Assembly: GCA_021790195.1 (NCBI GenBank)
Contig: JAJYIF010000001.1
Span: forward strand, 124,001-188,000
DNA: 64,000 bases
Direction: 5' to 3'
DNA from: Nitrospirota bacterium
GTDB lineage: Bacteria; Nitrospirota; Thermodesulfovibrionia; Thermodesulfovibrionales; UBA9159
The translations under genes were made by a program, and so were the position numbers. Below the pieces are notes generated by a model. The model was given only the letters and a program-made list of their open reading frames with translations. It searched no databases and had not been told where the DNA came from. Shown here piece by piece: positions 33,526-58,617 of the stretch (its first letter is position 1; every line of letters begins with the position of its first letter).

Positions 33526-33575
33526 TGCTGAGGCCGCGGACAAAGACAGCCCTGAATTTCTTGAGGAATAGTTTC

Positions 33576-33606
33576 CTATCTCTGCGTATCTGTGCCTCTG
33601 TGGTTT
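33576..33606. repeat. Short-period degenerate repeat (CTCTGTG type)
   Basis: Words TCTCTGCG, TATCTGTG, CCTCTGTGG follow each other on the plus strand, just upstream of the adaptor gene start (minus strand). It is the same family as the tract at 277-304. Confidence 0.5.
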
Positions 33607-33637
33607 CACGTTTATTCTCCTCTTAATGGCTGCTACG

Positions 33638-42426: not shown

Positions 42427-43335
42427 TCAAGGGTTTTCTGTCGAATAGATCTGGACGCGGTTGTTGTTTCTGTCCGCCACAAACATATCTCCGTTTTCGT
42501 TGACGCATACATCGGTGGGATAATAAACCTCGTCTGTCCGCCATCCCAGCCTTAACTGACGGCCCTTGAAGGAGCCGTCGAGGCCGAGCATGACAATCCC
42601 CCCTCCGGTGCGGTCTACAACATAGATGTTCCCCTTCGTGTCCGTAGTCATGGCGACCGGGAAATTCATATATTCCTTCATGCTTTTTGTCAGGGGAGAA
42701 AAAGTATTGGAGTCTTTCGGCGCCGAGTAAATGACAGCCTTCACGCTGTCGAGAAGCAGTATATCGCCACGGGTGTTTACGGTAATGTCCGACATGAAGC
42801 CGTAATCCTTCGGGAACTCGATCTGCCTCCGGAACTTGCCGTCCGGATTTAGTATCACGACGCGGCCCGAATAGATATCAAGGATATATATATTGTCGCC
42901 GGCGTCCAGCGCGACGCCTTTGGGGTCCATAGTCTGCGCGTCCGGAAGGTCCGCAGGCGCGAGGAACTCCACAAAGGTCCCGTCCGGCTTCAGATGCAGT
43001 ATGCGGTGCTGTTTTTCATCAGGGACGAAAAGGTCTCCCTTCGAATTCCTCCTCACTTTGAAGGGGTATCCCATCTGGGAAACTTTGATCTCCTTGCCGC
43101 CGGTCAGGTTTTCGTTCTTATAGCCGTAAACAAGAAGCCTGTCATTCCCCGAATCACTCACGATCAGGGTGTCGCCGGTGCAGGCAAGCCCGCCGGGTTG
43201 ACTGATGCTGACCCCCTTATCGTCGGTATACACCGTAGTTATGTAACGCGCCTTGAACGCCTCGGCGCCGAAGGCGCTTGCGGGAAGAGCAAGCGCCGCC
43301 AACAGAAGGAGCAGTCCTGATAGCTTTCTTATCAT
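42427..43335 (-). CDS. Secreted NHL-repeat beta-propeller protein (3' end of the nanowire locus)
   Basis: 302 residues with a signal peptide (LLLLAALALPASAFG). The body is a run of NHL blades with repeated GVALDAGDNIYILDIYSGRV and DVCVNENGDMFVADRNNNRV patterns, forming a six-bladed propeller. NHL proteins act as scaffolds or binding platforms; in the OmcS region of Geobacter, as I recall, such genes also occur. It follows the 16-haem cytochrome by four bases and ends the eight-gene operon that begins with the YncE-like gene. Confidence 0.88.
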   Translation of the reverse strand: MIRKLSGLLLLLAALALPASAFGAEAFKARYITTVYTDDKGVSISQPGGLACTGDTLIVSDSGNDRLLVYGYKNENLTGGKEIKVSQMGYPFKVRRNSKGDLFVPDEKQHRILHLKPDGTFVEFLAPADLPDAQTMDPKGVALDAGDNIYILDIYSGRVVILNPDGKFRRQIEFPKDYGFMSDITVNTRGDILLLDSVKAVIYSAPKDSNTFSPLTKSMKEYMNFPVAMTTDTKGNIYVVDRTGGGIVMLGLDGSFKGRQLRLGWRTDEVYYPTDVCVNENGDMFVADRNNNRVQIYSTENP

Positions 43336-43339
43336 ATCA

Positions 43340-44614
43340 TCACCTCTTGTATTCCTTATGGCATTGGATGCACAGCTCCGTTATTGTGGGGAAAGGTATC
43401 ATCGTCTTGTACGGGGTGCCGTGCGCCCTGTGACAGCTAAGACACATCAAGGTATTGTTCTTGTTCCTCGGGTCGGTGTACTTCGGCCCTATGGGATGGG
43501 TCGAGTGTTTCTGCCACTCGTGGCAGGAACCGCACAGGTTTATGACGGAAGTCTGGTTAAACAGCATCAGGTTGTCCGAGGCATGAGGCGCATGACACGC
43601 CATGCATTTGCCGTCCTTTATCGGCTCGTGCTTGGTCACCGACTTCTCCTGTCTCTCGATAGTGTCCGAATGGCACTTCCCGCAAAGCTTCAGCATGGGG
43701 GCATTGAGGAGATTCGTCTCTTTCGAGGCATGGGGCGTGTGGCATATAAGGCATCCGCCCTTGGTGTAGAACGGCCAATGCAACTGGTTTTTCCCCAGGG
43801 CATCGTCCACCATGTTGCTGTGACAGCTTCTGCAGAGCTCGAAAACCGGCTTCTTAAGGGCCAACGGGTTCTGAGAAGTCGTGCTTTCATGGCACTGCCC
43901 GCACATCTTGCTCTCCACGGGAGGATGCACATTGTCAAAAAGCATACCGGCCCTGTTGGAGCCGTGCGGGTTGTGACAGAGTATGCATTTGGCGTTCCCG
44001 ACAGGATAGCCCATGTGCTTCGATGCGAAGATCGGCGCGTTTATATTGTGGCAGCCCTTGCAAAGATCGGGCACGTCGTTTTTCAATAAATGCTCCGCGC
44101 CCGGGGAGGCGTGGGGACTATGGCAGTTTATGCAGCCTTTTTCGACCGGGTCGTGTTTGAACCTGACCGAGGCGACTTTCTGCGCCATGTCCTTGTGGCA
44201 CCCGAAGCACAGGTCGTTACCGGATTTGAGCAGATTGAACTTGTTGTCGGAGGCGTGGGGATCGTGACAGTTCACGCACTTGCCTTCACGCGCCACCTTG
44301 TGTACGCTTCGGGCATTCGACGGTACAATGTCCTTGTGACATTTGAAGCATATCTTGCTGGTGTCCGCAGCCAATTGCTTGGGGTGGTTGGACGTATGAG
44401 GATCATGGCAGCCCGTGCATTGCCCGATCTTCACGGGAGTATGGACGAAGGGCTTGCTCAGCTTTTCCTGAATGTCCACATGACAGCCCAGGCATATCTT
44501 GCCGTGGGCGCCCGGCTTCAGATGGAATACGTTCTCCTGCGCATATGCCGGAACACTCAAAAAGAGCGCCGCAGAAGAAGCGGTCAAAAGAAGGATTCTA
44601 TATAACAGTTTCAT
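43340..44614 (-). CDS. Periplasmic or exported cytochrome c with 16 haems
   Basis: 424 residues. Signal peptide ends at VPAYAQEN. I count 16 CxxCH motifs, mostly as doubled CxxCH units with the CHDPHTS/CHSPHAS pattern and intervening KHDPVEKG-like segments, so the protein is a long haem wire. The last motif CIQCH lies at the C-terminus (HKEYKR). It follows the 26-haem cytochrome by 13 bases and is surely in the same operon. It may carry electrons from the inner membrane towards the outer-membrane parts. Confidence 0.93.
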   Translation of the reverse strand: MKLLYRILLLTASSAALFLSVPAYAQENVFHLKPGAHGKICLGCHVDIQEKLSKPFVHTPVKIGQCTGCHDPHTSNHPKQLAADTSKICFKCHKDIVPSNARSVHKVAREGKCVNCHDPHASDNKFNLLKSGNDLCFGCHKDMAQKVASVRFKHDPVEKGCINCHSPHASPGAEHLLKNDVPDLCKGCHNINAPIFASKHMGYPVGNAKCILCHNPHGSNRAGMLFDNVHPPVESKMCGQCHESTTSQNPLALKKPVFELCRSCHSNMVDDALGKNQLHWPFYTKGGCLICHTPHASKETNLLNAPMLKLCGKCHSDTIERQEKSVTKHEPIKDGKCMACHAPHASDNLMLFNQTSVINLCGSCHEWQKHSTHPIGPKYTDPRNKNNTLMCLSCHRAHGTPYKTMIPFPTITELCIQCHKEYKR

Positions 44615-44627
44615 ACCGTTCTCCTCT

Positions 44628-46601
44628 CTATTTCTTCTCGACTATATGGCAGTCGTCGCACGATCTTCCCCCGAATGGAGGATGGACATTCGTCTTGAAG
44701 AACTTGGGGTCCTTCGAGGCGTGCGGGTCGTGACAGCGCACACAGTTCATCACCGACGGATCGATATTGATATGGGCATTGCTGAAGGAAGCCGCCTTGA
44801 GGTCATGACACTGCCCGCAGACATCCGCCATCGGCTGCAGGAGCAGACGCGCCTGGGCCGAATAATGCGGACTGTGACAGGTGAGACAGTCGCTTGCGGC
44901 CGGCGGATGGTTCTTCTCTTTGCCCATCCTCTCTTTCAGGTCTTTGTGACAGGCCAGACACATGTCCGGGCCCTCCACCAGGAGGAGCTTGCTCAATTTA
45001 GACTTGTGCGGGTTATGGCACTTTGTGCACTCCCCGGACTCAAAGGGAGGATGCTTGCTCTTCGCCTGGGCCAGCCCTGTAGCGAGATCAGTGTGGCACT
45101 GCAGGCAGAGGACGTTCTGTTTATCCAGCAAGACGCCTTCCTGCGCGCTGCCGTGGGGATCATGGCAGTTCAGACACAACCCGTCCACAAAGGGCTCGTG
45201 GTTTGTGCCGCCCGGTATCTGTTTCATGAAATCGCTGTGGCACTGAACACAGAGCTTTGCGTCCTCGGCCTTGAGGAACTTCGAATTGTCCGCGCCGTGG
45301 CCGTCATGGCAGGCTGTGCAGAGGCCGCTCGAGACCGGTTTATGGACATAAGCCTTGAAGAATTTCGCCTCGGCGTTCGTGTGGCACGAGTAACAAACCT
45401 TGTCGATCCTGTCCTTGAAGATGTATTTGTATCCTGACCCATGAGGATTGTGACAGGCGACGCATGTCTCTTTGGCGAACGGAGGATGGGTATCTTTGAA
45501 TTTCTGCTCTTTTACTTTCGAATGGCATTGGAAGCACAGCTCTCCGACGCTCACATTAAGCATGTTCTTGTTCTTGGCGGCGTGCGGCCTGTGGCACGAG
45601 AGACAGCCCTTCTCGCTCTTTACCGGCGCATGGGCGAACGAAACCGCCGCTCCCTTATCCGAGTGGCAGCTCACGCAGAGATCGTCGATTCTCTGTAGGA
45701 GCAGCCTGTTGTTATCAGAATCATGAGGGTTATGACATGAAAGACACATCCCCTCTTTAAACGGGACATGCTCAATTGTGCCTCCCTGCTTAAGCGTCGC
45801 TTCATCGTGGCACTGGAAGCAGAGCGCGCTTCCGCTCTGGGTCAGTTCGAAAGGCTTGGGCGAAGAAGGAGGATTGTGGCACGCATCGCAGCTAGAGGTC
45901 GAAACGGGGTTATGTAGGCTCGTCTTGAGGAGTTTGGGCTGTTCGGACGAGTGAGGGTCATGGCAAACAAGACACGATTTGGTCTCTACCGGATAGTCTT
46001 CGTGGGCCTTCTTAAACGCCGCCTGCTTGCTGTCGTGGCAGCCGAGGCAGAGCTCTATGGAAGGTTTTGTAAGGAGGTCCTTTTCTTTGGAGCCGTGGGA
46101 GAGATGACAGGCCCTGCAGCCCTCGGTCAAAAGGACCTTATGGACGACCTTCTTTTCATAATTCTCCTTCTTGTGGCACTGATAGCATACTTCCCTTCCC
46201 TCGGCCTTCAAGAGATAGGCCGATTGAGACGCATGCGGATTGTGGCACTGGGTGCACTTTCCCTTCGTGACCGCAGTATGGACATTAGGCAGGTTCAGCC
46301 CGAGTTTATCCTTTGCATGGCACGAATAGCAGAGATCATTCCCCTCTTTCTTGAGGATAAGCTTGGGCACTATGCCGTGGCGGAGGTGGCAGTCCTCGCA
46401 CTTTTTGTCTTTCACCGGGGCGTGAATGTCCTTCATGGACATATAGGTCTCGGTAAATTTCTTATGGCAGTCGAGGCAGCCCTTGCTCACGAATTTCCTC
46501 TCGGCAGTCAGAGAGGAGTGGACCCCTAAGAAGAGGCCGGACAAAAGAACGGCCGTAAAGAGCACAATAATCTTGTTATTCCTTTTCACTGAGCTGAACA
46601 T
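44628..46601 (-). CDS. Periplasmic or exported cytochrome c with 26 haems
   Basis: 657 residues from ATG 46601, preferred because of the AAAGGG upstream; ATG 46619 would give an ATGA overlap with the prolyl isomerase stop and cannot be excluded. A hydrophobic N-terminal segment (IIVLFTAVLLSGLFLGVHSS) is the signal. I count 26 CxxCH motifs in regular doubled units (CHNPHAS, CHDPHSS, CHDGHGA). A 26-haem cytochrome, as I recall, also stands beside omcS in Geobacter sulfurreducens (GSU2495). It should form a long electron wire. Confidence 0.93.
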   Translation of the reverse strand: MFSSVKRNNKIIVLFTAVLLSGLFLGVHSSLTAERKFVSKGCLDCHKKFTETYMSMKDIHAPVKDKKCEDCHLRHGIVPKLILKKEGNDLCYSCHAKDKLGLNLPNVHTAVTKGKCTQCHNPHASQSAYLLKAEGREVCYQCHKKENYEKKVVHKVLLTEGCRACHLSHGSKEKDLLTKPSIELCLGCHDSKQAAFKKAHEDYPVETKSCLVCHDPHSSEQPKLLKTSLHNPVSTSSCDACHNPPSSPKPFELTQSGSALCFQCHDEATLKQGGTIEHVPFKEGMCLSCHNPHDSDNNRLLLQRIDDLCVSCHSDKGAAVSFAHAPVKSEKGCLSCHRPHAAKNKNMLNVSVGELCFQCHSKVKEQKFKDTHPPFAKETCVACHNPHGSGYKYIFKDRIDKVCYSCHTNAEAKFFKAYVHKPVSSGLCTACHDGHGADNSKFLKAEDAKLCVQCHSDFMKQIPGGTNHEPFVDGLCLNCHDPHGSAQEGVLLDKQNVLCLQCHTDLATGLAQAKSKHPPFESGECTKCHNPHKSKLSKLLLVEGPDMCLACHKDLKERMGKEKNHPPAASDCLTCHSPHYSAQARLLLQPMADVCGQCHDLKAASFSNAHINIDPSVMNCVRCHDPHASKDPKFFKTNVHPPFGGRSCDDCHIVEKK

Positions 46602-46615
46602 CCCTTTTCCCTTTC

Positions 46616-48361
46616 TCATAGCTGTTCGCAATTACTGAGATAGACCTCGACCTTGTAATGGGTCGTAAGCTTCCCGGCCCAATCGTCAAGGTCTTTCGTC
46701 ATCTTTTCGTTAAGAATTTTCTTATTGATCATCCCTTTGACACTATCCAGAGGCTGGGCAACGGGCGGGGCGATTTCCTGCACATAGATGACGTAATAGT
46801 ATCCGTCAGGGCTTTCATAGAGCTTAAAGTCGCCGGATTTTGCGTCTTCGATCGCCTTGCGGGCCCCTTGAGGCAGCTCAGCCGTGAACATAGAGGCGCC
46901 ATCAAAGACCATAAGTCCGTCAGTCTTCTTGACCTGACCTTCGGCGTTGTCGCGCACCCACTGGAAGTCCGCGCCCTTCTCTAATTTATCTATTGCATCA
47001 TCGGCGGCCTTTCTCTTCGTGAAAACGAGGCTGCTCAGCTTCACCTTCTTAAGACTCGTGTAGTCGCTCTTGTGCTTTTCATAATATGCCTTGACCTCGT
47101 CGTCCTTCACCTTTACTTCGGGGGAAATGACCTTCGTAATAAACAATCCGAAGAGCAGGGAATTCTCATAATCCCTAAGCCTGTCCTTGTACTCTTTGGT
47201 CTTGTCGATCCCCTGCCTGACCGCCTCTCCTTCGAGCACCCTCTTCTGAACGACCTCTTCCATGGTCGGAAACTTCTGCGCATTCACCTGCTTGTCCTTT
47301 ATCGACTCCTCGATGCCGTGGAAGAATTTACCTTTGAGGACCTCAGAAAACTCGGCCACCGTCACGGGCTTTTCGCCCTTGACCCTGATCAGGACCCTCT
47401 TGTCCTTCATAAACTTCCCGAAGCCCGGCTTCTTTGCCTCGTAATCGAGGCTGTTGAAGACCTTCTTGTCGACCATCACATATTTCTTGATCAGGCCCGT
47501 CAGATACTTTTTGAAAGCATTCGTCTTGTCTAATTCAAGCACTTCCTGCTCCGTCTGTTCCTTGACCTTCGGGTCGTCCGGATAGCTTATATCTTCGAGT
47601 TTCAGAATCGTGTAGCCGGACTCGACCTTTATAACGGGGCTGACCGAGCCGGTCTTCATGGAAGAAACGACCTTCTCGACCTCGGGCTGGAGGTCCTTGT
47701 TCTTGATGAACTTTCCTTCGAGCTCCCCGCTCGCTTCCTTTTTTTCTATGGCCTCCTTTGCCACCTTCGCGAAATCCTTGCCCGCCTTGATCTCCTTCTC
47801 CATCTTCTTTGCGGGCTCTTCCTTCCCGAAAAAAATGGACGCTATCTTGTATTGTTTTATCGCGTCCTTGTATTTCTTTTCCACTTCGGACTTGTTCACC
47901 TTTACGTCCTTGATGTGCTGTTCCCTGAGCATTTCCCTCAGGAGGGTCTTTGAATGGAGACTCACCGCCTTCTTGTACTCCGGCAGCTCGTCGAAACCCA
48001 TGTTGCGTGTCTCGGCCAGGATCAACCTTGTATTGATCATACGCTTCAATATATCGCAATAGTCCTTCTTGCCCGCCTTTTCCTTCTTTTCTGACATCTC
48101 CTCATGCGAGCGGGCGAGCATCTCGGTCAGCTCTTTCAGGGTGATCGGCTCACCGCTAACCGAAGCGACAGGCGTATCCGAAAAGAGAGGAGAGAAAACA
48201 GGGACGTTCAGAGTGACCCTTTCCTCGGAAAGTCTGGGGGCCGCAGCCGCAGCCGCCTTACCGTTCGGCTTGTCCGGTTTCTGATCGTCCGCGAAGCCGG
48301 TCGCGGCGCAGAGAAATATGCTAATCAAGACTGCCTTAAATACCATCGAAAAATATTTCAC
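46616..48361 (-). CDS. Periplasmic parvulin-type peptidyl-prolyl isomerase (SurA/PpiC-like)
   Basis: 581 residues from GTG 48361 behind GGAGGAAAC. Signal peptide SIFLCAATGFADD. An N-terminal SurA-like helical region (about 60-170) precedes a parvulin domain (GELEGKFIKNKDLQPEVEKV, SPVIKVESGYTILKLEDISY) and a second, more divergent one (KADDAIDKLEKGADFQWVRD, DGYYYVIYVQEIAPP). These isomerases help fold outer-membrane and secreted proteins. Its stop overlaps the following cytochrome start region, suggesting that it assists folding of haem proteins or the barrel of this locus. Confidence 0.87.
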   Translation of the reverse strand: MKYFSMVFKAVLISIFLCAATGFADDQKPDKPNGKAAAAAAPRLSEERVTLNVPVFSPLFSDTPVASVSGEPITLKELTEMLARSHEEMSEKKEKAGKKDYCDILKRMINTRLILAETRNMGFDELPEYKKAVSLHSKTLLREMLREQHIKDVKVNKSEVEKKYKDAIKQYKIASIFFGKEEPAKKMEKEIKAGKDFAKVAKEAIEKKEASGELEGKFIKNKDLQPEVEKVVSSMKTGSVSPVIKVESGYTILKLEDISYPDDPKVKEQTEQEVLELDKTNAFKKYLTGLIKKYVMVDKKVFNSLDYEAKKPGFGKFMKDKRVLIRVKGEKPVTVAEFSEVLKGKFFHGIEESIKDKQVNAQKFPTMEEVVQKRVLEGEAVRQGIDKTKEYKDRLRDYENSLLFGLFITKVISPEVKVKDDEVKAYYEKHKSDYTSLKKVKLSSLVFTKRKAADDAIDKLEKGADFQWVRDNAEGQVKKTDGLMVFDGASMFTAELPQGARKAIEDAKSGDFKLYESPDGYYYVIYVQEIAPPVAQPLDSVKGMINKKILNEKMTKDLDDWAGKLTTHYKVEVYLSNCEQL

Positions 48362-48401
48362 GTTTCCTCCATATGTCCAAATCTTCAGTCTCAGACAGAT
48401 T

Positions 48402-49517
48402 CTATTTGATCGCCATTTCCGTAACCGCCCGCGTCATCTCGGACGAGAGAGAAAAGGCGGTGTTGATCTTGCCGCTGTCAAAAAAGAACACCCCGTCGCT
48501 TCCTTCGTTATAGCTGTTTGAGGACCAGACGATTTCCTTGCTTTTCCTGTCGAAGATCAGGGCGGAAAAGTCGACCCTTGGAACGCCGAGGGGGCCCTGA
48601 TAATCCTCGTAATCAAAAACGTATCCCGCAACGATCAGGTCCACGTTGAGAGTGTTGAAAATGACGTCCGCATTGGTCAGGGAAAGACCCTGCTCCAGGA
48701 TGACCCTGTACTGAAGCAGCTTCTGTCTTATAAGACCTATGTCTTTCACGTCGAGGTTCTTGAATTTCGTAAGATAGTCCATAAACATCAGCTGCATCAT
48801 ATCTCCGGCATATCTCCTCTGGCTCCTGTTATAAAACGGCAGGACGGCCACAGAGTATTTCTCGGATGCGCTCAGCTCGGGCGAGCGGTATGACACCTTC
48901 GGCCTGAACCTCTTCGAAAACGATCCAGGTGACTTCCCCGTATGCGAGAGGGTCGCGGCGAGGGAATTAATAAGGGTCTGGAGCGCATTCTCGCGAAGGA
49001 CCGCAGGGCTCTCGATAAGCCCGAGCTCTAGGAACCCGGGAGAATCATCCCCTGACAGCCCGGTCCCGTCCATCCATAGGACCCTTGGGGACGGCCCTGT
49101 CGAGACCAGACGCGAGACCATGGAGATCCTGGGCGGCGTTGTCACGTTATAAAGTTCCAGTTCTGTTATAAGCACAGCATCGACGCCAATCTCTTTCTTG
49201 AAGGCCTTCGCGGTCTCCTCGTCTATGCCCCCGACGTAACGTACCCTGCGCTCCGCCATAAAATCCTCAAGACTCTTTTCGTCGATAACGGACAGGCCCG
49301 CCTCCTCCAGTTTCTTGATAATAGATTCCCTCATCTCCTTCAACGGAGCCGGGCTCATGCTCATGTTCTCTATCGGAAAAACAGCCACCCTTAAATCCTT
49401 TCCCTTCAAAATACCCTCGCTCGTGCCGGCGACCCTCAGATCAGCGCACCCGGCAAGGACGGCGAGAGCAACGACCAAAGCCAAGACCTTACATAAAGAG
49501 TTTATCGATGAGGTCAT
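48402..49517 (-). CDS. CsgG/FlgO-like lipoprotein with two tandem domains
   Basis: 371 residues. Signal peptide ends in LAVLAGC (lipobox). Two similar alpha/beta units follow: about 40-150 (LRVAVFPIENMSMSPAPLKE, GIDEETAKAFKKEIGVDAVL) and about 235-360 (YSVAVLPFYNRSQRRYAGDM, LNVDLIVAGYVFDYEDYQ), like the TolB/CsgG N-terminal fold. CsgG itself forms an outer-membrane secretion pore; this protein lacks an obvious barrel hairpin, so pore formation is not shown. The start overlaps the end of the upstream lipoprotein gene by 29 bases. Confidence 0.78.
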   Translation of the reverse strand: MTSSINSLCKVLALVVALAVLAGCADLRVAGTSEGILKGKDLRVAVFPIENMSMSPAPLKEMRESIIKKLEEAGLSVIDEKSLEDFMAERRVRYVGGIDEETAKAFKKEIGVDAVLITELELYNVTTPPRISMVSRLVSTGPSPRVLWMDGTGLSGDDSPGFLELGLIESPAVLRENALQTLINSLAATLSHTGKSPGSFSKRFRPKVSYRSPELSASEKYSVAVLPFYNRSQRRYAGDMMQLMFMDYLTKFKNLDVKDIGLIRQKLLQYRVILEQGLSLTNADVIFNTLNVDLIVAGYVFDYEDYQGPLGVPRVDFSALIFDRKSKEIVWSSNSYNEGSDGVFFFDSGKINTAFSLSSEMTRAVTEMAIK

Positions 49518-50115
49518 TGGCGGCCTTCACTGTAATATCGTTCATCGGCTTGCCTCCGCCTCCAAAAAGGCGGTCCCAGAAGCTGATACCGCCTTCCGTG
49601 GCAGATGCCGACCACACAACCCTGCCTGTTTCCGTTTCAATCATTTGCAGGCTAAGCGATATCACGTTTGAAGAGGAGTTCCCTGACCTCACCTCTCCGT
49701 ATTCCTTGAGGACCCCCAGGATCACCGCATTGGCTGAAATCGCACCCGCGATCTTCTTGATCTCCTCCGTTGTAGGCGTCGCGGGAGTCGTCGTACCCGA
49801 CCTCAGGATCCCGCGGGTCACCTCTCCTGTAGGGATGACATAGACGGCACCCGTGGCCTGAAGCAAATTCATGAACACGTCCCTCACCCTTTCAGCGGCC
49901 GACTGGTCCCTCGTAAGGTTTGTGAAGGGAAGCACGGCAACGGTCTTGATGGCTCCAAAATCCATATTAGGGTCTTTGTAGACATCCGTGGCCCCCTTGA
50001 CTGAGGCGCATGAAGCGAGGCAAGCGACTACGATGATTGATAAGATCCTGGTCAACGATGTTTTCACGACTACCCTTTGAATAGTTTTTACTTTAGCAAT
50101 TATATAATTTATCAT
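49489..50115 (-). CDS. CsgG/GNA1162-like lipoprotein
   Basis: 208 residues from ATG 50115, which has GGAGGG eight bases upstream; ATG 50136 is less well supported. The signal peptide ends in VACLASC. The sequence KTVAVLPFTNLTRDQSAAER and the later VSLSLQMIETETGRVVWSAS pattern fit the DUF799/GNA1162 and CsgG-like lipoproteins. Together with its neighbour it may form a lipoprotein complex in the outer membrane. It follows the barrel gene by 51 bases. Confidence 0.78.
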   Translation of the reverse strand: MINYIIAKVKTIQRVVVKTSLTRILSIIVVACLASCASVKGATDVYKDPNMDFGAIKTVAVLPFTNLTRDQSAAERVRDVFMNLLQATGAVYVIPTGEVTRGILRSGTTTPATPTTEEIKKIAGAISANAVILGVLKEYGEVRSGNSSSNVISLSLQMIETETGRVVWSASATEGGISFWDRLFGGGGKPMNDITVKAANDLIDKLFM

Positions 50116-50166
50116 ATTTGCGTCCCTCCGTTCCATATGTCGTATGTGGCCTCCCTAGAATGATCC

Positions 50167-52353
50167 TCACAGCAGCACCCTCAGCGTTCCCGTAAGGATA
50201 TTAGAATTAGACGACTGCACTATTGAGCTCGAAGTAAGACGCAGATACGTGATCTGCAAGGTAGTTTTTTCGCTTATTTTCCAGGTCAGGCTAGGACTCA
50301 GCGTTCTATCCTTCGAGTTGGTATCGGACCTGAAATTGTCGTTATACAGGAAATTCAACTGAAGGGACCCGTCCGGAAAAGGCGACCAGTTTATGCCGTA
50401 ATTGCTGAGATAGTAGGATTTCGCGCCGGTCTGGTGAACGACCCCGAATTCCGCGACGATGTAAACGGTCTCAAACGGCCTGTAGGTTGCGCCCGCGTCG
50501 AACCTGTCGAAGAGTGTATGGTCGGTCCCCTCTATGCCCGGCCCAGTCCTCGATGTATTATTCAGGGAATAATTAAGGTTCAGGGTCACGGTCCTGTGAG
50601 GAACGGCTGTCGCGCCAAGGACAGCGGTGGTGCTTGTATTTTTTACCCCTTTGTCATCGGTGTTGGAGCTCCAGCCCACGGAGGCGTTGGCGTTTATCCC
50701 CCTGTACAACTCCGCAGAATTATTGAGTACGACGGCGTTGCTGTCATTTGTCCTTCCCGGCAACTGCGATATCTGCCCGCTGTAAACAAGGGTATGGCGC
50801 AATGTCCTGAAGGGAACAGCGGTAACGGACGCAGAATAGATATAGTCAACTCTCGAACCGTTTATGTCGTACCCGTCGTTGCGCGAAAAACGGGCCATGC
50901 CTGAGAAGACGCGGCTGAAGGTATGGGCGGCGGTAAGTCCGTTGGAAATGGTATACCTCGTAAAAGAGGAGGCGCCGGTCCCGCTGGAGTTCGTCAAGTA
51001 GAGAGAGAAGTCATAATAGAGGGAGGGCACATCCAGAATCTTCGTCCTGACGTTCATATTGTAAAGGTGGTTGATCTGCGTGTTCGTCCCGCTCACCTGG
51101 GAGGCGGGCTTCTTGATAAAGGTCTGGAACTCGGTGACAAAGATGTCCGGGAAATTCGTTGCGCCTTCGATCCCTGTCGAAAGCGGCTTTACGACGACCT
51201 TCATGTACCGTGTCGTCACGTTCGGAAAGTTAAGATCGAAGCGGTTCTGGAAAGGGCCGAAGGGGGCCGAGGACAGGCTCTGGAAGAAAGTCCAGTTCTG
51301 GTTGTCCGAGCTTATATAGATGTCCCAGGAGAAGGAGCTCGCTATCTGGGCAGGGAGCGCCCTGTCGACCCAGACGTAGAGCTCGTTGACCTCGGTGGCA
51401 TTGAAGAAATCGACCCCTATGTTCCTCGGCCTTGTATCTCCACCCACTATCGGGGGCAGTCCTATGTTTATGCCGCTGCTCGCCGTCAGATTGCCGTCTA
51501 TCAGCGCCGGGTTTGCGGAAAGGGCGCCCTGAATCGGCAGGTCCGTAATGAGCGACAGGCCGGCGAAGGGAAAGAGCTGCACGCCCACGAAGCCTTTGCC
51601 GCTCTGGGAAGTGTCCGTCGTGCGCAGGGCGAACGAATAGTTTGCGTTGACGAAGACCCTGTTGAAGAAGACGTTAGAATATGTAGCGATGGCGTTGTGC
51701 AGATAGGACGTGACATCGAGGTCGTTTAGCTTGTCTCTGAGGTCGTTGTAAGTGAGCTGGTAGTTCAGATCGAGCCCCCTCATCGCTGTATACTTCGAGC
51801 TCAGGAGAAGGTTGTCGTTCGTGATGTCCTGGAGTTCATGGGCCTTGTCGAAGGTGTTTGTGTTCGTATATTGGACATTGAGGGTCGGGAGTCCCTCCGG
51901 TCTCCATCCCAGCCTTGCGTGATAGTCCTCATTTACAAGGGTGGAGCTAGGAGAGCCGGAGGCTGTGGTCTTCTCTTCCCTCCTGTTATAGCCCGCCATG
52001 ACATTATAGAGCCTTGTGTTCAACTGCAGGTCGGCGTACGGGTTTATGGTGGTGTCAGTAGACTTTATCCTTGAATTCGTCGTGTTCAGCGTTGCCTGGT
52101 CCCACTCAAAAATCCCTCCGGCCAGAAGCCGCAGGTTTGGGAATATGGATTTATCAAGGGTCAGGTTATACTTCTGGTCGAAATCATGCGAGTTGAGCTT
52201 GGTCGTATTCCCCGATGAGTCTGTGGTCTTGCTGTCAAAAATAGAGTAGTCCAATTCTATAAGCCCGCCGATCGAATCGGCGAGAGCCCCGCCTGCCGAC
52301 ACATGTAAAAAAAAAAGTGAAAAAATGATTAAAAAGGCGAGGCGCTTCTTCAT
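50167..52353 (-). CDS. Large outer-membrane beta-barrel protein with discoidin-like insert
   Basis: 728 residues with a signal peptide (FLIIFSLFFLHVSAGGALAD). The rest is alternating amphipathic beta-strands with aromatic ends, such as LNVQYTNTNTFDK, LTLNLNYSLNN and FLYNDNF, ending in a beta-signal-like TLRVLL. Residues about 310-415 differ and resemble an F5/8-type C (discoidin-like) domain (FFNATEVNELYVWVDRALPA, SWDIYISSDNQNWTFFQSL, RYMKVVVKPL). Being between the YncE gene and the lipoproteins in a cytochrome operon, it could be a porin of a porin-cytochrome conduit or the exit channel for the filament. The barrel is clear; the function is inferred. Confidence 0.8.
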   Translation of the reverse strand: MKKRLAFLIIFSLFFLHVSAGGALADSIGGLIELDYSIFDSKTTDSSGNTTKLNSHDFDQKYNLTLDKSIFPNLRLLAGGIFEWDQATLNTTNSRIKSTDTTINPYADLQLNTRLYNVMAGYNRREEKTTASGSPSSTLVNEDYHARLGWRPEGLPTLNVQYTNTNTFDKAHELQDITNDNLLLSSKYTAMRGLDLNYQLTYNDLRDKLNDLDVTSYLHNAIATYSNVFFNRVFVNANYSFALRTTDTSQSGKGFVGVQLFPFAGLSLITDLPIQGALSANPALIDGNLTASSGINIGLPPIVGGDTRPRNIGVDFFNATEVNELYVWVDRALPAQIASSFSWDIYISSDNQNWTFFQSLSSAPFGPFQNRFDLNFPNVTTRYMKVVVKPLSTGIEGATNFPDIFVTEFQTFIKKPASQVSGTNTQINHLYNMNVRTKILDVPSLYYDFSLYLTNSSGTGASSFTRYTISNGLTAAHTFSRVFSGMARFSRNDGYDINGSRVDYIYSASVTAVPFRTLRHTLVYSGQISQLPGRTNDSNAVVLNNSAELYRGINANASVGWSSNTDDKGVKNTSTTAVLGATAVPHRTVTLNLNYSLNNTSRTGPGIEGTDHTLFDRFDAGATYRPFETVYIVAEFGVVHQTGAKSYYLSNYGINWSPFPDGSLQLNFLYNDNFRSDTNSKDRTLSPSLTWKISEKTTLQITYLRLTSSSIVQSSNSNILTGTLRVLL

Positions 52354-52363
52354 ATCGGCGCCC

Positions 52364-53833
52364 TTATCTCTCTCCCATAAGGGTCACCCAATAAGGGTCT
52401 TCCCCCACATCGAACCTGCCGAGGACCTTCTTGCTCGTAAGGTTCAGGACACTGATGGTGTCCCGGCCCACAACATACAGATTGTTCTCGTCGCCGTCTA
52501 TAGTCATATAAGTAGTACCTTGTCCGGACTTCATGAAATCCATGGGCAGAAGAGAAAATGGGTCATAAATATCTATAGTATCGGAATCCTTTCTTCCGAT
52601 ATAGATAAAATCCGACTGCGTATCGACCTTGATCGCCGTCACCCCAAAGCCAAGATATACCTTGTTCAGGACCGACAGGGAGGCTGGGTCGATCACGGAC
52701 ATATAGGGAGAAAACTGGTGTATCACGTACAGCCTGTCCCCTTTCCTGTTAAACTGACCTCTGAGCGGCATCGATTCCGTCCCGATCGTTGTGACGACCG
52801 CCTTGTTCCCGATATCTATTACCGTGATCGAATTGGAAAGCATATTGAAAACATAAGCCCTCTTGCCGTCGGGCGATATCAGGATAGAGTTGGGTCCGTT
52901 GCCCACACTTATCCTGTTCGTCTCCATGTAGGAGGCGGTGTCTATCACGCTGACGGTATTCGATCCCGAGTCTACGCAGAGGAGAGTGCGTCCGTCAGGG
53001 GTAAGCGCCAGCTCCTGCGGACTGTCGCCGACGGTAAGTCTCACCCGCTGGATAACGTCCTGGGTTATGACGTCGCTGACCTGGATCGTGTCGTCGCCCG
53101 AAAGAGCGGTATAGAGCCTCCTCGCCCTCTGGTCCAGGGCCATTCCCTTTGGGCTGCTCCTTGTCGCCATGACCCCGACCGCCTGGATCCCTTTTTTATC
53201 GAACACCGTGACATTGTTCTGTCCCGGATTGCTTACAAACCCGAGGACTCCCGTGACGGGTTTCCCCGGTATAAAGACACTGAAGACCGGACTGAAACTG
53301 AACTCGTCCTTTACCGACTGCGCGTACTTGAAATTCATATTCAGGAGAAGGGCCTTTTGTTTAGAGATCTGAAACGGCGACTCGATCTTTACCGGCGCCT
53401 CGGGTGTCGCCATCGCCGACTCGCCCTCTTCGCCCTGAAGGAATGCCTTGCCCGTCTTGAAAAACAGTCCCGAGTAGCTGCCGGGCGGCAGGACGCCGCT
53501 CGCGACAAGCCTCTGTCTCGGTTCCTGCTCCCACTTAAACTCCTTAACATAAAGGTTCAGAGGATATTCGCTCCCGTCCGTCTTGACTGCAGAGACACTT
53601 TCGATAAAAAACCTGAGTCTCTGGGCCTCCTGGGGTATCGGCTGGAGATAGACATAGACCTCGCCGTCCTCCTCAAGCGGGGGCTTCACAGACAAGGGCT
53701 TTGCCTCGCAGGCCGAAAGAAACAAAAGCGCAAGCGGAACAAGAACTGCGGCCTTCGACAATAATTTTTTATAATTTAATGCGCCTCGTATTGCCAATCT
53801 TTTCTGTGCCGGACAACCGGATCTTCTTTTCAT
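52364..53833 (-). CDS. YncE-like beta-propeller lipoprotein with DUF4382-like N-terminus
   Basis: 489 residues from ATG 53833; ATG 53869 is alternative. A hydrophobic segment ends in LLFLSAC (lipobox). The N-terminal domain (about 45-180, GEVYVYLQPIPQEAQRLRFF, LPPGSYSGLFFKTGKAFL) resembles DUF4382-like beta-sandwiches. The C-terminal part is a seven-bladed YncE-type propeller with repeats VIDTASYMETNRISVGNGPN and ILISPDGKRAYVFNMLSNSI. A sigma-70-like promoter lies between it and the omcS terminator. First gene of the eight-gene operon; barrel gene follows at ten bases. Confidence 0.82.
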   Translation of the reverse strand: MKRRSGCPAQKRLAIRGALNYKKLLSKAAVLVPLALLFLSACEAKPLSVKPPLEEDGEVYVYLQPIPQEAQRLRFFIESVSAVKTDGSEYPLNLYVKEFKWEQEPRQRLVASGVLPPGSYSGLFFKTGKAFLQGEEGESAMATPEAPVKIESPFQISKQKALLLNMNFKYAQSVKDEFSFSPVFSVFIPGKPVTGVLGFVSNPGQNNVTVFDKKGIQAVGVMATRSSPKGMALDQRARRLYTALSGDDTIQVSDVITQDVIQRVRLTVGDSPQELALTPDGRTLLCVDSGSNTVSVIDTASYMETNRISVGNGPNSILISPDGKRAYVFNMLSNSITVIDIGNKAVVTTIGTESMPLRGQFNRKGDRLYVIHQFSPYMSVIDPASLSVLNKVYLGFGVTAIKVDTQSDFIYIGRKDSDTIDIYDPFSLLPMDFMKSGQGTTYMTIDGDENNLYVVGRDTISVLNLTSKKVLGRFDVGEDPYWVTLMGER

Positions 53834-53840
53834 TAAACCA

Positions 53841-53869
53841 ATCTTATCCGATATTCTCCCCTGTTTCAA
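53841..53869 (-). promoter_or_regulatory. Probable sigma-70 promoter of the eight-gene operon
   Basis: TTGAAA (plus-strand 53864-53869) and TAAGAT (53841-53846) are 17 bases apart on the minus strand. Transcription would start about one base before the ATG at 53833, suggesting a leaderless mRNA. Confidence 0.5.
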
Positions 53870-53891
53870 GAATCACATCAAGAATAACGGG

Positions 53892-53922
53892 AAAAAGGAA
53901 GGCCGGCATTTGCCGGCCTTCC
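53892..53922 (-). terminator. Strong rho-independent terminator behind omcS
   Basis: Eleven-base arms GGAAGGCCGGC (53897-53907) and GCCGGCCTTCC (53912-53922) surround a four-base loop, followed on the minus strand by TTTTT (53892-53896). It separates the omcS transcript from the YncE operon. Confidence 0.9.
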
Positions 53923-53957
53923 CTCATGAGACCACACAAAAGATATTGGAGGGGAAA

Positions 53958-55346
53958 TTAGTCTTTTGCGTGGCACTTGTTGCAGAGCTGTCTCTGATAG
54001 GTCGCGTATATTGTCGCGGGCCTCTCATAGAAAGATCTCTGCACCTGGGCCTGGGTATAACCCATGTTGTACTGTCCGCCCTGCGCCTCTGTGGTGGCGG
54101 CGTCGATGCCCGGATATATGCCGCCGAGGGTGAGGAATTCAGCGCCGGTGTTCCACCTTGTGGACTGCGGCCATGCAGATGCATGCGCCCTGTGGCAGGA
54201 GAGGCACATCACGTTTGTGTTGTTGCCCGGAGTCGGTCCCTGTGTCTTGGACCCGTCATTCACTGCATCAGCGGCAAGAGCTGCATAGTTTGTCTGATTA
54301 AGCGTGAGGTTCTCCTCATACGGAACCATGGAGGTGTATGAAGTCGCCTGGGTGCCTGTCAGATTGCCGGAATATACATAGGCGTTGTACTTCTGTGCTA
54401 TGCTTACGCCGTTTGCATCCGTATTGTCGAGAGAAGCAGCCGCGTCGTTTCCGGTCGGGTGCTCAAGCGTTGTCGGGTAGTTCGGGTTGTGGATCTGGGT
54501 GTGGCAGTTTGCGCACCACTCGGACATACCGCTTCCATATGCGACCCTGGTGTCTGTAGTGGCCTCAGACCTGTTGTAGGTCGAAGGCGCAAAGGCAAAA
54601 GGAGAAGGGTTCGTAAACGCCAAGCCCATTCCCGCAACTGAATCAGGCTCATAACCGACGCCTGCGAGGAGTCTGTAAACGCCGACCGCCTCACCGGCTC
54701 CGCCGTTTCCGTTGGTTGTCGGCAGTTCGGTCCCATAAGAACCGGAGCCGATGATCGGGCCGACGTTCGTGCCGATAGCGGACACAACAGACTGGTAGCT
54801 GCTGTTGATCCTGTATTTGCCGTGGGGATCATGGCAGCTAGAGCAATAAAGGTTCGCTACCGGGTATGTCCCGCCCGGGGCCGTGGTGTAGGCTGACTGG
54901 GCAGTCAGACCGAAGTCTGCAGCAACGATGTTATGGCCGTGGAAGTTGCCCGGGTTGGAAACAGGCGAACCATAGGAGGTCGTCGCGCTCGTCGTGAGCT
55001 TCAGCCATGAGAAGTCTCCGCCCGGGGTCATGTCGCCGGGTACGAAGCCCGCAGCCGGCGTGCCTGTCGAGGACAGGATGTGATAGCCGCTGAAGGAGGT
55101 GTTGCTTGCGTGGCAGTTAAGACAGGTCGAGCTCTGGTCGCTGCCTTTCAAAAGATAAGTATGACCGTTGAACTGGACCGCGCCGCCGGTAGTTGATACG
55201 GCGGTGTTGTGCAATGAGTTGTGCATGGTGTGGCATCCTTCGCAATACGCGACGCCGCCGTCATGGTATGCATAGGCAGAGCCCGCAAACCCGAGGGCCA
55301 GAACCGCAACTGCGATGATGACCAAACTTGCTTTTAATCCTTTCAT
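53958..55346 (-). CDS. omcS: OmcS-type hexahaem cytochrome, extracellular nanowire subunit
   Basis: 462 residues with GGAGGAAAGAA before the ATG. Signal peptide ends AGSAYA; mature protein begins YHDGGVAYCEGCHTMHNS. Six CxxCH motifs lie at Cys35, 75, 168, 278, 381 and 455. The sequence matches G. sulfurreducens OmcS, recalled from memory, along its whole length: GDFSWLK, TTAPGGTYP, CSSCHDPHGKYR, STYNRSEATTDTRVAYG, MSEWCANCHTQIHN, CLSCHRAHAS and the end RQLCNKCHAKD. OmcS subunits polymerise into filaments in which stacked haems conduct electrons over micrometres; the C-terminal haem contacts the next subunit. The conserved spacing supports the same filament here. It follows an NHL gene and is closed by a strong terminator, so high expression is expected. 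Confidence 0.95.
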   Translation of the reverse strand: MKGLKASLVIIAVAVLALGFAGSAYAYHDGGVAYCEGCHTMHNSLHNTAVSTTGGAVQFNGHTYLLKGSDQSSTCLNCHASNTSFSGYHILSSTGTPAAGFVPGDMTPGGDFSWLKLTTSATTSYGSPVSNPGNFHGHNIVAADFGLTAQSAYTTAPGGTYPVANLYCSSCHDPHGKYRINSSYQSVVSAIGTNVGPIIGSGSYGTELPTTNGNGGAGEAVGVYRLLAGVGYEPDSVAGMGLAFTNPSPFAFAPSTYNRSEATTDTRVAYGSGMSEWCANCHTQIHNPNYPTTLEHPTGNDAAASLDNTDANGVSIAQKYNAYVYSGNLTGTQATSYTSMVPYEENLTLNQTNYAALAADAVNDGSKTQGPTPGNNTNVMCLSCHRAHASAWPQSTRWNTGAEFLTLGGIYPGIDAATTEAQGGQYNMGYTQAQVQRSFYERPATIYATYQRQLCNKCHAKD

Positions 55347-55366
55347 TTCTTTCCTCCATTACTCTG

Positions 55367-55406
55367 AATCCTCTATTTAAGGATTGCTTTCACCGGCAAG
55401 GCCGGT
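55367..55406 (-). promoter_or_regulatory. Structured leader upstream of omcS
   Basis: Two hairpins are encoded between the NHL stop and the omcS start: ACCGG/CCGGT around CAAGG (55392-55406) and AATCCT/AGGATT around a seven-base loop (55367-55385). The second ends 20 bases before the ATG. GCAATC words flank the first. It matches no known class: the GEMM-type riboswitch known upstream of some Geobacter cytochromes is not recognisable here. Confidence 0.45.
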
Positions 55407-55481
55407 TTCCTGCGAAATAAAGATTGCCTTTGAGTTGCTCCTTCTCCTTCTGTGATCACCTCCTTCTCACCCCTCCAAACT

Positions 55482-56438
55482 CTATTCATAATTGATCCCG
55501 AAAACGCTGACTCCCCTGTTCATGCTCTGGGTCACATAAAGTTTTCCGTCCTGATACGCGATCTCCTTAGGAGCGATTAGCTCGCCGGGACCGAGACCCC
55601 TCTGGCTGAATTGTGTGATGAATCTATAGTCCTTATCGAAGACAAGCACTGCGGACTTGAGCACATCCGCCACGTAAAGGTTCCCCTTGTCGTCCTCCGT
55701 GATCCCTGAAATGACGTTAAATTTCCCAGGCGCGCCGCCCTTCTGACCGAAGGCGGCCAGCTTCCCGTCGGGAGAATACTTGAATGCTTTGAAAACCACC
55801 GGGACCGTAAACAGCATGTTCCCGTCCTTGTCAAGACTGAAACCTGAGATCTCGATGTCGTATCTCTTCTTACCTTCGAGGTTAAGGACGGAGAATAGGT
55901 CATAACTCTTCTCAAAGAGTCCTTTGGAGTCGGCCAGGACCACCCTCATGGAGCCTTTGTCCACCAAGTAGATATGCCCGCCGCGGTAAAGTATCTCGGT
56001 CGGCCTGAACTCCTTTTCAAGTCCCGCCGGGAGGTTCCTGATATTTATCCTGGAAACCAGCTCACCCCTGAAGTTGGCCAGCAGCACGGAGTATTTCGAA
56101 TGATAGTCATAAGAGAGGACAAGGATGTTGCCTTTGTCGTCGAGCGTCACATCATAAATAATGCCGAGACTGTTGTCATCGCCGAAGGTATAGACTTCCA
56201 TGCCTTCCTGGTTGAAGATCCTCACCGAATTGTCCGCTACATCGGTTACGTAGATCTCCCCCATCTTGTTGTCCGTAAAGACGTTGACCCAGCCATAGGG
56301 CACAACGCCGCTGAAGTTGGAAAGGCTATAGAGATAAGATGTGCGGACGTTTTCCGCCTCGGCACTAGCGCAAAAGGCTGTCAGGACAAGAGCGAGAGCT
56401 GCGGAAACTGCAGGATGCTTTTTTAGTGTGCTTCTCAT
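55482..56438 (-). CDS. Secreted NHL-repeat beta-propeller protein upstream of omcS
   Basis: 318 residues; AAGGAAG precedes the ATG. Signal peptide LALVLTAFCASAEAE. Six NHL blades with patterns such as GWVNVFTDNKMGEIYVTDVA and GITEDDKGNLYVADVLKSAV. It is followed by omcS after 135 bases and is probably in the same transcript. NHL genes beside omcS, as I recall, also occur in Geobacter, so a role in filament assembly or anchoring is plausible but unproven. A sigma-54-like site overlaps its upstream region. Confidence 0.87.
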   Translation of the reverse strand: MRSTLKKHPAVSAALALVLTAFCASAEAENVRTSYLYSLSNFSGVVPYGWVNVFTDNKMGEIYVTDVADNSVRIFNQEGMEVYTFGDDNSLGIIYDVTLDDKGNILVLSYDYHSKYSVLLANFRGELVSRINIRNLPAGLEKEFRPTEILYRGGHIYLVDKGSMRVVLADSKGLFEKSYDLFSVLNLEGKKRYDIEISGFSLDKDGNMLFTVPVVFKAFKYSPDGKLAAFGQKGGAPGKFNVISGITEDDKGNLYVADVLKSAVLVFDKDYRFITQFSQRGLGPGELIAPKEIAYQDGKLYVTQSMNRGVSVFGINYE

Positions 56439-56837
56439 GGCGCTTCCTTAAGAGCAAGCCATATGCCAGGAAGGGCCGATACAAAAAGTTTAATAAGAAC
56501 GGGATGTTACAGAACGATGGAGCTTTTCAAGACATGCATAAACGGTTAAATTACCAGGTAGGGTTGGTGAGTTTACCAGGCGGAAAAGTAATCTCCGGCT
56601 ACAATAAAAATGATCCCGGGAACTACGCGGCGGGAAGAATAACGGCTCCGCGTGATAAACCTTTTTTTCGTGCTCGCAAATCTTCACCCCGTAAACCTGC
56701 CGACTGAAAAGGTGAAAATCCTTTTCTTAGTGGGTAATTTCGCTGACTCTCGTCATATGGCCCATGCGTCGGCATCCTTAACTCCTTGAAAATATGTCTT
56801 TTCCCCGTGGTATGCTATTTGCTTGGTGATGTCCCGG
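56439..56837. other. Divergent intergenic region with sigma-54-like site
   Basis: About 400 bases between the NHL gene (minus) and the CheY-like gene (plus). It holds the sigma-54-like site at 56453-56469, a six-pair stem ACGCGG/CCGCGT (56625-56630 with 56648-56653) followed eight bases later by seven T, and a weak plus-strand promoter (TTGAAA near 56786, TATGCT 56811-56816). No convincing gene. Confidence 0.55.
56453..56469 (-). promoter_or_regulatory. Sigma-54-like -24/-12 element before NHL-omcS
   Basis: On the minus strand CTGGCATATGGCTTGCT matches the consensus YTGGCACGRNNNTTGCW at GG and GC with the exact spacing; three variable positions differ. The predicted start is near 56442, four bases before the NHL ATG, which would cut off the AAGGAAG ribosome binding site, so a chance match is possible. 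An NtrC-family activator is encoded nearby. Confidence 0.5.
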
Positions 56838-57221
56838 ATGAAGAAGATATTGATCGTCGATGATGAGGAGTTGATTCTCTGGGGCCTGTCCAAGACAATC
56901 AAAAATCTCGGCAATGTCGACAAAGAGATAAAGACAGTCAATAACGGTAAAGACGCTGTCGCTGAGATCGATACCTGCATGTACGACCTCTGTTTTCTTG
57001 ATATCCACATACCCGAAGGCGACGGGATAGACCTTATGAGGAGAATAAAGAAGGTCTCTCCGCGCACGAAGATAGTGATGATGACCTCGTACGATTTAGA
57101 CGATATCACAAGGAAGGAGATCCAGGAGAACGCCTATCACTTTGTCCCCAAACCCTTCAACCTGCCACAGGTGAGGGAGATAGTCGAAAGCGCCTTAAGC
57201 GTAAATAATTCCGTCCGCTAA
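56838..57221 (+). CDS. CheY-like single-domain response regulator
   Basis: About 127 residues from ATG 56838 (ATG 56829 is also possible). KKILIVDDEELILWGLSKTI and CFLDIHIPEGDGIDLMRRIK provide the acidic pocket and phospho-acceptor Asp; MMTSYDLDD has the switch Thr/Ser, and the Lys of VPKPFN is conserved. No output domain is present. It is convergent with the NtrC-family gene, whose stop lies seven bases away, and may be a phosphorelay partner of the haem kinase. Confidence 0.9.
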   Translation: MKKILIVDDEELILWGLSKTIKNLGNVDKEIKTVNNGKDAVAEIDTCMYDLCFLDIHIPEGDGIDLMRRIKKVSPRTKIVMMTSYDLDDITRKEIQENAYHFVPKPFNLPQVREIVESALSVNNSVR

Positions 57222-57228
57222 GAAAGTT

Positions 57229-58617
57229 TTATTCAAGCCCGAACTTCTTGATCTGGTACCTGAAAGAGTCATAACTGATATTCAATAACTTGGCCGCGAG
57301 TGTTTTATTGTTCTTTGCCCTTTCGAGGGCCTGCATTATGAGGTCTTTTTCGAGATCGTCCAGGGAAATGCCGTTCTCCGGAAGAATGAATCTCCCTTCG
57401 AATTTCCCACCCGGAATGAGTCCCGGCGTGACTACCTCCCTCGGCAGGTGCTCAGCCATCACGGTTGTTGCGCTTTCGAGCACAACGATCCTTTCCACCA
57501 CATTCCTGAGTTCTCTCACATTTCCGGGCCACTTGTAGGAGATCATAAGCTTTTCAGCTTCAGGGGAAAGGTCTCTTATCGTTCTGTTCCCATACTTTTC
57601 GGCAAACCTGTTGAGATAATATTTCGAGATTGCCGGAATGTCGTCTCTCCGTTCCCGCAGGGGAGGGATGAATAGCGAGAAGACATTCAGACGGTAGAAG
57701 AGGTCCGTCCTGAACTCGCCCTTTTCCACAGCCTCGGAGATGTCCTTGTTCGTAGTGGCGATTACCGTAACGTCCACAGGGATCTCCTTCTGACCGCCGA
57801 TCCGTCGTATCGTCCTCTCCTCAAGGACGCGCAGCAGCTTGCTTTGAAGGCTGAGCTTCATGTCGCCTATTTCGTCGAGGAGTATTGTCCCTCCGTTTGC
57901 GAGCTCGAACATGCCTTTCTTTTCGGTCCTCGCATCGGTGAAGGCGCCTTTTTCAAAGCCGAAGAGCTCGCTCTCGAGAAGGTTTTCAGGAAGGGCCGTG
58001 CAGTTGATCGCGATGAAAGGCGTGCAGCCCTTGCCGGGATCGCAGTTGATAATGCCGTGTATATAACGCGCGACCAGCTCCTTGCCTGTGCCGCTTTCAC
58101 CCGTGATGAGGATCATGGAGACACCTGAACGGGCCATCTTCTCAGCCTTCTTCTTGAGCTCATTTATGGCTTCCGATTCCCCGACTATCTCTTTTTCGAA
58201 GGCGTCCGAGTAGAACTTTCTGAGGTAGTTGACCTCCTGCTTCAGGCTCCCTTTCTCAATGATATTCTTTACGACAATCTTCACCTCATCTATATTGAAG
58301 GGCTTGGTCAGATAATCGGCGGCCCCGAGCTTCATGCATTTGATGGCGGTCTCAACGTGGTCGTTCGCCGTCAGCATGACAACCTCCGTATCGATCCTGC
58401 TCCTCTTTATCTCTTCGAGTATCTCGATGCCGCTCGTGCCGGGAAGGTTCATATCGAGCAATACAACGTCCGGAGGCCACGATCCGACCTTGTCCGCAAC
58501 AGCGATGAAAGACTGAGATTCCGAGCCGACCTCATAGCCTTCGCCCTTCAGTGCCCTCGAGAGCATCGCCACAATAAGTTCGTCATCATCGATGAGAAAG
58601 ACCTTCCCCTTCTTCAT
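57229..58617 (-). CDS. NtrC-family sigma-54-dependent response regulator
   Basis: 462 residues. Receiver domain 1-120 with phospho-acceptor Asp55 and Lys105; AAA+ domain about 145-380 with Walker A GESGTGKE (173-180) and Walker B GGTILLDEIGD; C-terminal helix-turn-helix (about 425-462, KNNKTLAAKLLNISYDSFRY). The sigma-54 contact loop reads GAFTDA (225-230) rather than GAFTGA; a D at that position is seen in other members. Its start overlaps the kinase stop by four bases, giving a clear two-component pair. It is the obvious candidate activator for the sigma-54-like site upstream of NHL-omcS. Confidence 0.95.
   Translation of the reverse strand: MKKGKVFLIDDDELIVAMLSRALKGEGYEVGSESQSFIAVADKVGSWPPDVVLLDMNLPGTSGIEILEEIKRSRIDTEVVMLTANDHVETAIKCMKLGAADYLTKPFNIDEVKIVVKNIIEKGSLKQEVNYLRKFYSDAFEKEIVGESEAINELKKKAEKMARSGVSMILITGESGTGKELVARYIHGIINCDPGKGCTPFIAINCTALPENLLESELFGFEKGAFTDARTEKKGMFELANGGTILLDEIGDMKLSLQSKLLRVLEERTIRRIGGQKEIPVDVTVIATTNKDISEAVEKGEFRTDLFYRLNVFSLFIPPLRERRDDIPAISKYYLNRFAEKYGNRTIRDLSPEAEKLMISYKWPGNVRELRNVVERIVVLESATTVMAEHLPREVVTPGLIPGGKFEGRFILPENGISLDDLEKDLIMQALERAKNNKTLAAKLLNISYDSFRYQIKKFGLE

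Follow-up and report, generated by a model that had tools for sequence, protein, structure and literature searches.

A probable osc-type operon for an OmcS cytochrome wire in Nitrospirota, with a predicted c-haem kinase/sigma54 module upstream

An OmcS-type operon in a Nitrospirota genome

We analysed a 64,000-nucleotide (nt) stretch of a Nitrospirota bacterium genome, called the window here (GenBank assembly GCA_021790195.1, contig JAJYIF010000001.1, positions 124,001 to 188,000), which carries at 42427-56438 an operon built around a hexahaem cytochrome of the OmcS family. Ten closely packed minus-strand genes run from 56438 down to 42427 in the order NHL propeller, hexahaem cytochrome, YncE propeller lipoprotein, barrel, two lipoproteins, prolyl isomerase, 26-haem cytochrome, 16-haem cytochrome and NHL propeller. 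Neighbouring genes are separated by -29 to 135 nt, a spacing that suits a single transcription unit. The initial annotation of this stretch had proposed an OmcS-type nanowire locus with a candidate assembly kit. Its ten gene coordinates and its haem counts of 6, 26 and 16 proved exact, while its span covered the operon and stopped short of four upstream regulatory genes (56823-61357) that probably belong to the operon's unit.

The hexahaem cytochrome is an OmcS

The proposed likeness to Geobacter sulfurreducens OmcS (GSU2504; PDB 6ef8, 6nef) extended over the whole protein. A phmmer search against the PDB returned a single protein, OmcS (6ef8, E 1.6e-105), with a full-length alignment of query residues 27-462 to residues 1-407 of the 6ef8 chain. 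In an alignment of 107 sequences, 206 of 400 aligned residues were identical between the window cytochrome and 6ef8 (51.5%), all six CxxCH sites of OmcS were present with their order kept, and the C-terminal LCNKCHAKD was shared. Outside the CxxCH sites exactly six histidines are near-universal (H2, H16, H110, H147, H257 and H335 of 6ef8, each in 104-107 of the 107 sequences), and the window cytochrome has a histidine at all six, giving 12 ligand-type histidines in total. In the OmcS filament all 12 haem ligands are histidines, one of which is donated by the neighbouring subunit (PMC6584659). Six extra conserved histidines are therefore the number needed. The position of H16, which we take to be the histidine shared with the neighbouring subunit, is kept in 104 of the 107 sequences.

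An AlphaFold2 model of the cytochrome, built from 56 relatives, reached a predicted local distance difference test score (pLDDT) of 83.9. Its only significant Foldseek match in the PDB was again 6ef8 (template modelling score 0.88 by target length, E 7e-39), so that alignment and predicted fold both bore out the initial assignment. We conclude that the hexahaem protein is an OmcS. It differs from the G. sulfurreducens protein in sequence, loop lengths and host phylum; by analogy the window OmcS would form a filament too.

The gene set is the osc operon

The companion genes correspond to the osc operon, in which OscH serves folding, OscE/F/G secretion and OscD the form of the wire, according to the account of Shen et al. 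2025 given in PMC13194489. Its propeller, barrel, two lipoproteins, prolyl isomerase, 26- and 16-haem cytochromes and terminal NHL gene are collinear with those of the window (table 1). The comparison set was 72 other named loci (L004-L075), retrieved through the similarity of their omcS. The order barrel-CsgG2-CsgG1-prolyl isomerase was kept in 41 of these, and the longer order omcS-YncE-barrel-CsgG2-CsgG1-prolyl isomerase in 36, with the 26-haem cytochrome next in 32. Collinear loci include Geobacteraceae, Anaeromyxobacter, Rokubacteria, Syntrophaceae, Desulfobulbaceae and other Nitrospirota; the E-values together with synteny in 41 other loci exclude chance. Among 296 Nitrospirota genomes, nine had a close CsgG2 (>50% identity), always on the same contig as omcS and 4-5 kb from it. 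The window gene set is thus the already described osc operon, found across several phyla: the folding and export genes of the proposed kit are present and conserved beside omcS elsewhere, and only its novelty falls away.

Haem numbers are fixed in the two large cytochromes, with exactly 26 CxxCH in all 22 homologues of the first longer than 600 amino acids and 16 in all six homologues of the second longer than 400; both gave doubled CxxCH matches of Pfam/NCBIfam type. For the barrel, Pfam gave a weak F5/8 type C match only, and its barrel nature is predicted. Of the two lipoproteins initially called CsgG-like, CsgG2 is so identified by Pfam families; CsgG1 had no Pfam or NCBIfam match, and its putative label derives solely from the LAGC lipobox and the conserved position. 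Gene order alone would suggest which of OscE/F/G each window gene is. The window operon has one OmcS-type gene, whereas the Geobacter operon has omcS, omcT and oscC, and none of the Geobacterales loci read showed the c-haem kinase/sigma54 module that lies upstream in the window. In the stretches examined, no osc genes accompanied many of the omcS-like genes (L004, L034, L042, L043, L048, L061, L068 and others), some of which stand in tandem.

Table 1. Features of the osc-type operon and of the region upstream of it.
Feature	Coordinates	Strand	Basis
PhnD-like periplasmic binding lipoprotein, overlaps kinase start	60449..61357	-	PF12974, E 1.6e-64
Histidine kinase: periplasmic four-helix sensor with CxxCHH, HAMP-PAS-HisKA-HATPase	58614..60449	-	domain matches; model
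NtrC-type sigma54 response regulator	57229..58617	-	PF00072, PF00158, HTH_8
Single-domain receiver (REC), divergent from operon, ATG about 56838	56823..57221	+	PF00072
sigma54 -24/-12 element TGGCATATGGCTTGCT	56453..56468	-	14 nt before ATG of first propeller
NHL-repeat propeller, first gene of operon	55482..56438	-	Pfam NHL; ahead of omcS in most collinear loci
OmcS-family hexahaem cytochrome, predicted wire subunit	53958..55346	-	signal peptide and 6 CxxCH; phmmer, His ligands, AlphaFold2/Foldseek
YncE-type propeller lipoprotein, OscD position	52364..53869	-	Pfam YNCE, TIGR02276, 7-bladed repeats; lipobox LSAC; synteny
Predicted outer-membrane barrel, 728 amino acids, position of one of OscE/F/G	50167..52353	-	synteny in 41 loci
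CsgG/LpoB/GNA1162-type lipoprotein (CsgG2), most specific osc marker used	49489..50136	-	PF05643, PF13036
Second export-set lipoprotein (CsgG1)	48402..49517	-	lipobox LAGC; synteny
SurA/PpiC-type prolyl isomerase, OscH position	46616..48361	-	PF13145, PF00639; synteny
26-haem cytochrome, OscI/GSU2495 position	44628..46631	-	26 CxxCH
16-haem cytochrome, GSU2494 position by order	43340..44614	-	16 CxxCH
NHL-repeat propeller, last gene of operon	42427..43335	-	Pfam NHL; equivalent place in Geobacter-type L018, L020, L022

The host belongs to Nitrospirota

The host genome measures 3.3 Mb and is 96% complete, and the contig of the window is 280 kb long. Neither a 16S rRNA gene nor rpoB was found in this assembly, probably owing to assembly gaps, and the host was placed by kinship to other genomes instead. 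The omcS of 'Nitrospirae bacterium DBS2-1.bin90' (L003) is 91% identical to that of the window and is preceded by the same genes; 'Nitrospirae bacterium B_NIT_04' (JACWAF; G120 of the kinship search) belongs to the taxonomic order of the host. Because of these two relationships the host is assigned to Nitrospirota, which bears out the possibility, raised in the initial annotation, of a host outside Geobacterales. In a tree of osc sequences the closest relative of the window's osc set was B_NIT_04 (support 99), and the nearest sequences beyond Nitrospirota were Geobacter-like. The osc sets of Nitrospirota did not form a single clade, and deep branches were weakly supported. A second omcS of the host (62-64% identical) lies near the end of a different contig, and the 20 kb read around it contained no osc genes.

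A predicted haem-binding kinase and a sigma54 site lie upstream

Directly upstream of the operon, the genes for the PhnD-like protein, the kinase and the regulator follow each other in overlapping order. This trio, or the kinase-regulator pair, is found beside omcS in many distant loci. Regulator homologues that are 54-59% identical adjoin omcS in other phyla, a PhnD-like gene is linked in ten loci (L023, L040, L041, L050, L059, L067, L069, L071, L073 and L075), and homologues of the divergent receiver occur in at least eight (L003, L016, L044, L059, L060, L062, L067 and L069). The CxxCHH motif of the kinase sensor is invariant in 13 of 13 homologues, and we predict from the motif that it binds a c-type haem. 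In a structural model (pLDDT 82.7) the sensor is a four-helix bundle with CxxCHH between helices 2 and 3, weakly resembling NarQ (Foldseek E only 0.007). The predicted four-helix periplasmic sensor and the joint encoding of kinase and binding protein are features shared with NarQ-type sensor kinases and XylFII-LytS pairs; the window kinase differs from these in its CxxCHH, the predicted c-haem site, and in having an NtrC-type sigma54 activator as partner.

The sigma54 element ahead of the first propeller is the sole exact match to TGGCRY-N5-TTGCW in the window, and such sites were enriched in the genome (25 versus 5 in the control). An exact site was present upstream of the first propeller in 10 of 44 loci, compared with 1% of random stretches. 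When loci with enough upstream sequence were divided by presence of the module, the site occurred in 11 of 12 with it and in 2 of 25 without it (Fisher p 1e-6). In 13 loci (the window and 12 others) from several phyla, 12-15 nt separate the end of the site from the start codon. Transcription from sigma54 promoters usually starts 11-12 nt after the -12 element, so this spacing predicts a leader of about 2-5 nt and a near-leaderless transcript. Other sigma54 sites of the host genome that precede clear genes lie mostly 32-51 nt from the start. A further sigma54-like site, with one mismatch, is found on the plus strand at 56808-56823, just ahead of the divergent receiver gene, and the stretch of about 340 bp between both sites may contain activator sites.

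Two ideas about control that draw on Geobacter were rejected. Geobacter omcS is under control of a cyclic di-GMP/cyclic GMP-AMP riboswitch (GEMM); an Rfam search of the window gave no match except a tRNA. The other idea was that sigma54 controls omcS in G. sulfurreducens itself; the paper on the RpoN regulon names neither omcS nor its neighbours.

A diverged branch carries a CX5CH site

In addition to the nine genomes with a close CsgG2, there were 17 other Nitrospirota genomes among the 296 whose sole CsgG2 was a distant one. It was mostly duplicated in tandem, and a cytochrome with weak likeness to OmcS usually lay 6-10 kb away. We took nine such Nitrospirota regions, eight of which contained a diverged system with NHL, YncE, barrel, CsgG2, CsgG1, prolyl isomerase and 26-haem genes in the same order (L134-L140 and L142, from genomes G219, G128, G190, G162, G107, G182, G282 and G156); CsgG2 was paired in seven of the eight. 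The ninth, from a member of the host's own family (G225), was an ordinary osc locus. Cytochromes of the diverged systems are about 330-450 amino acids long and have five CxxCH sites besides a third haem site, which is CX5CH (C-x-G-x-x-G-C-H, CAGxxGCH) in 17 of 20 and a plain CxxCH in three; a description of these proteins as pentahaem was rejected once the alignment showed the CX5CH site. Profile comparison with the OmcS alignment gave E 4e-41, and the best PDB match of the family was OmcS (E 1.4e-21). The family was present in 8 of 39 named genomes, including Desulfobulbaceae and Desulfobacteraceae. The literature searched contained no mention of CX5CH with haem. The branch may represent a wire class not yet described; having a collinear osc set of its own, it predicts a further class of cytochrome filament and an unusual haem attachment site.

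A proposed wire system and its alternatives

We consider it quite probable that the window encodes a complete osc-type operon making an extracellular OmcS wire in Nitrospirota, under a haem-kinase/sigma54 switch. Gene content and order, OmcS identity, ligand histidines, predicted fold, host phylum and the conservation of the upstream module and of the sigma54-type site were established directly. The PhnD-like protein and the c-haem kinase would detect a ligand or the redox state on the outer side of the inner membrane; the kinase would then phosphorylate the NtrC-type regulator, which would fire the promoter at 56453-56468, whose transcript would begin only about 2-5 nt ahead of the first ATG. 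Following the Geobacter osc work, as described in PMC13194489, the prolyl isomerase would act as periplasmic chaperone of the subunit once this is loaded with haem, the barrel and the two CsgG-like lipoproteins would export the subunit, and the YncE propeller would control the form of the filament. Subunits would be joined head to tail as in Geobacter, a haem of each being ligated by the adjacent subunit's equivalent of OmcS H16 (H42 in the window protein), and the 26- and 16-haem cytochromes may feed electrons into the wire. More tentatively, and with somewhat more doubt than confidence, we suggest that OmcS operons beyond Geobacterales are switched by a dedicated c-haem kinase, PhnD-like protein and sigma54 activator via a leaderless promoter, and that the same machine also serves the CX5CH branch. 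The new elements are the phylum in which this complete example stands, the module of haem kinase and sigma54 regulator, whose promoter is unusually placed, and the CX5CH branch. A complete OmcS set with its known assembly genes is now placed well beyond Geobacter, so that Nitrospirota are worth examining for cytochrome wires that carry electrons out of the cell. For the question of how wire production is turned on outside Geobacter, the upstream module supplies a testable answer.

Several observations weigh against this proposal. We know of no member of Nitrospirota in which polymerisation, export or conductivity has been demonstrated. The AlphaFold2 model is of a haem-free monomer, and its residues 22-59 have low confidence; in OmcS these form the arm reaching the next subunit, where contact with the neighbour is expected, and in the model their low confidence is compatible with a filament, not proof of one. 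Nor is scarcity of Shine-Dalgarno sequences peculiar to the operon's first gene: since other operon genes lack one nearly as often (with crude start calls), its absence adds no weight to the leaderless reading and was dropped as support for it. Under a strict definition of the module, requiring 50% identity or more in the regulator, the site was present in 9 of 10 loci with the module and in 4 of 27 without. The link between module and site is strong by counts and not significant after tree correction (four independent pairs, all in the same direction, p 0.125). Kinases of this sensor family, moreover, occur in 70 of the 296 Nitrospirota genomes, mostly not beside omcS. These last two points would fit upstream genes that are mere neighbours controlling something else, with osc expressed otherwise. 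We regard this as the less likely case, at perhaps one chance among several, given that the same genes adjoin in several phyla, that a sigma54 regulator stands beside a conserved sigma54 site and that the divergent receiver is kept.

The operon could also be read as a trans-outer-membrane conduit, a porin with multihaem cytochromes as in MtrCAB or Pcc, with the hexahaem protein as a non-polymerising terminal surface cytochrome. A large barrel and the 26- and 16-haem cytochromes in one unit would suit such a conduit; however, the barrel has no MtrB/PioB Pfam match, the cytochrome is OmcS throughout with the near-invariant H16 position, and the set includes chaperone and CsgG-like genes as in osc, which makes the conduit distinctly unlikely. 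Least probable by far is that misassembly or misbinning brought a Geobacterales osc operon into a Nitrospirota metagenome-assembled genome. The Geobacter-like nature of the nearest sequences outside the phylum would agree with this, but the operon sits inside the 280-kb contig, DBS2-1.bin90 has the near-identical omcS with the same upstream genes, B_NIT_04 is the well-supported closest osc relative, and G225 has an osc set too.

Other genes in the window

Two adjoining HtrA/DegP-type PDZ proteases are encoded at 35089-36555 and 36937-38370 (minus strand), and the osc operon ends about 4 kb away. Two efflux systems of the resistance-nodulation-division type, each with an outer-membrane factor and pump genes, are encoded at 12349-18156 (plus strand) and 29396-35032 (minus strand). 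Type I-E CRISPR-Cas genes (Cas3, Cse1, CT1975-like) occupy 18923-27018 on the plus strand, with a BRO-N domain protein nearby. At 480-7352 on the minus strand is a 2290-amino-acid multihaem protein with 31 CxxCH and four CX4CH motifs and a match to the Geobacter CxxxxCH motif of Pfam.

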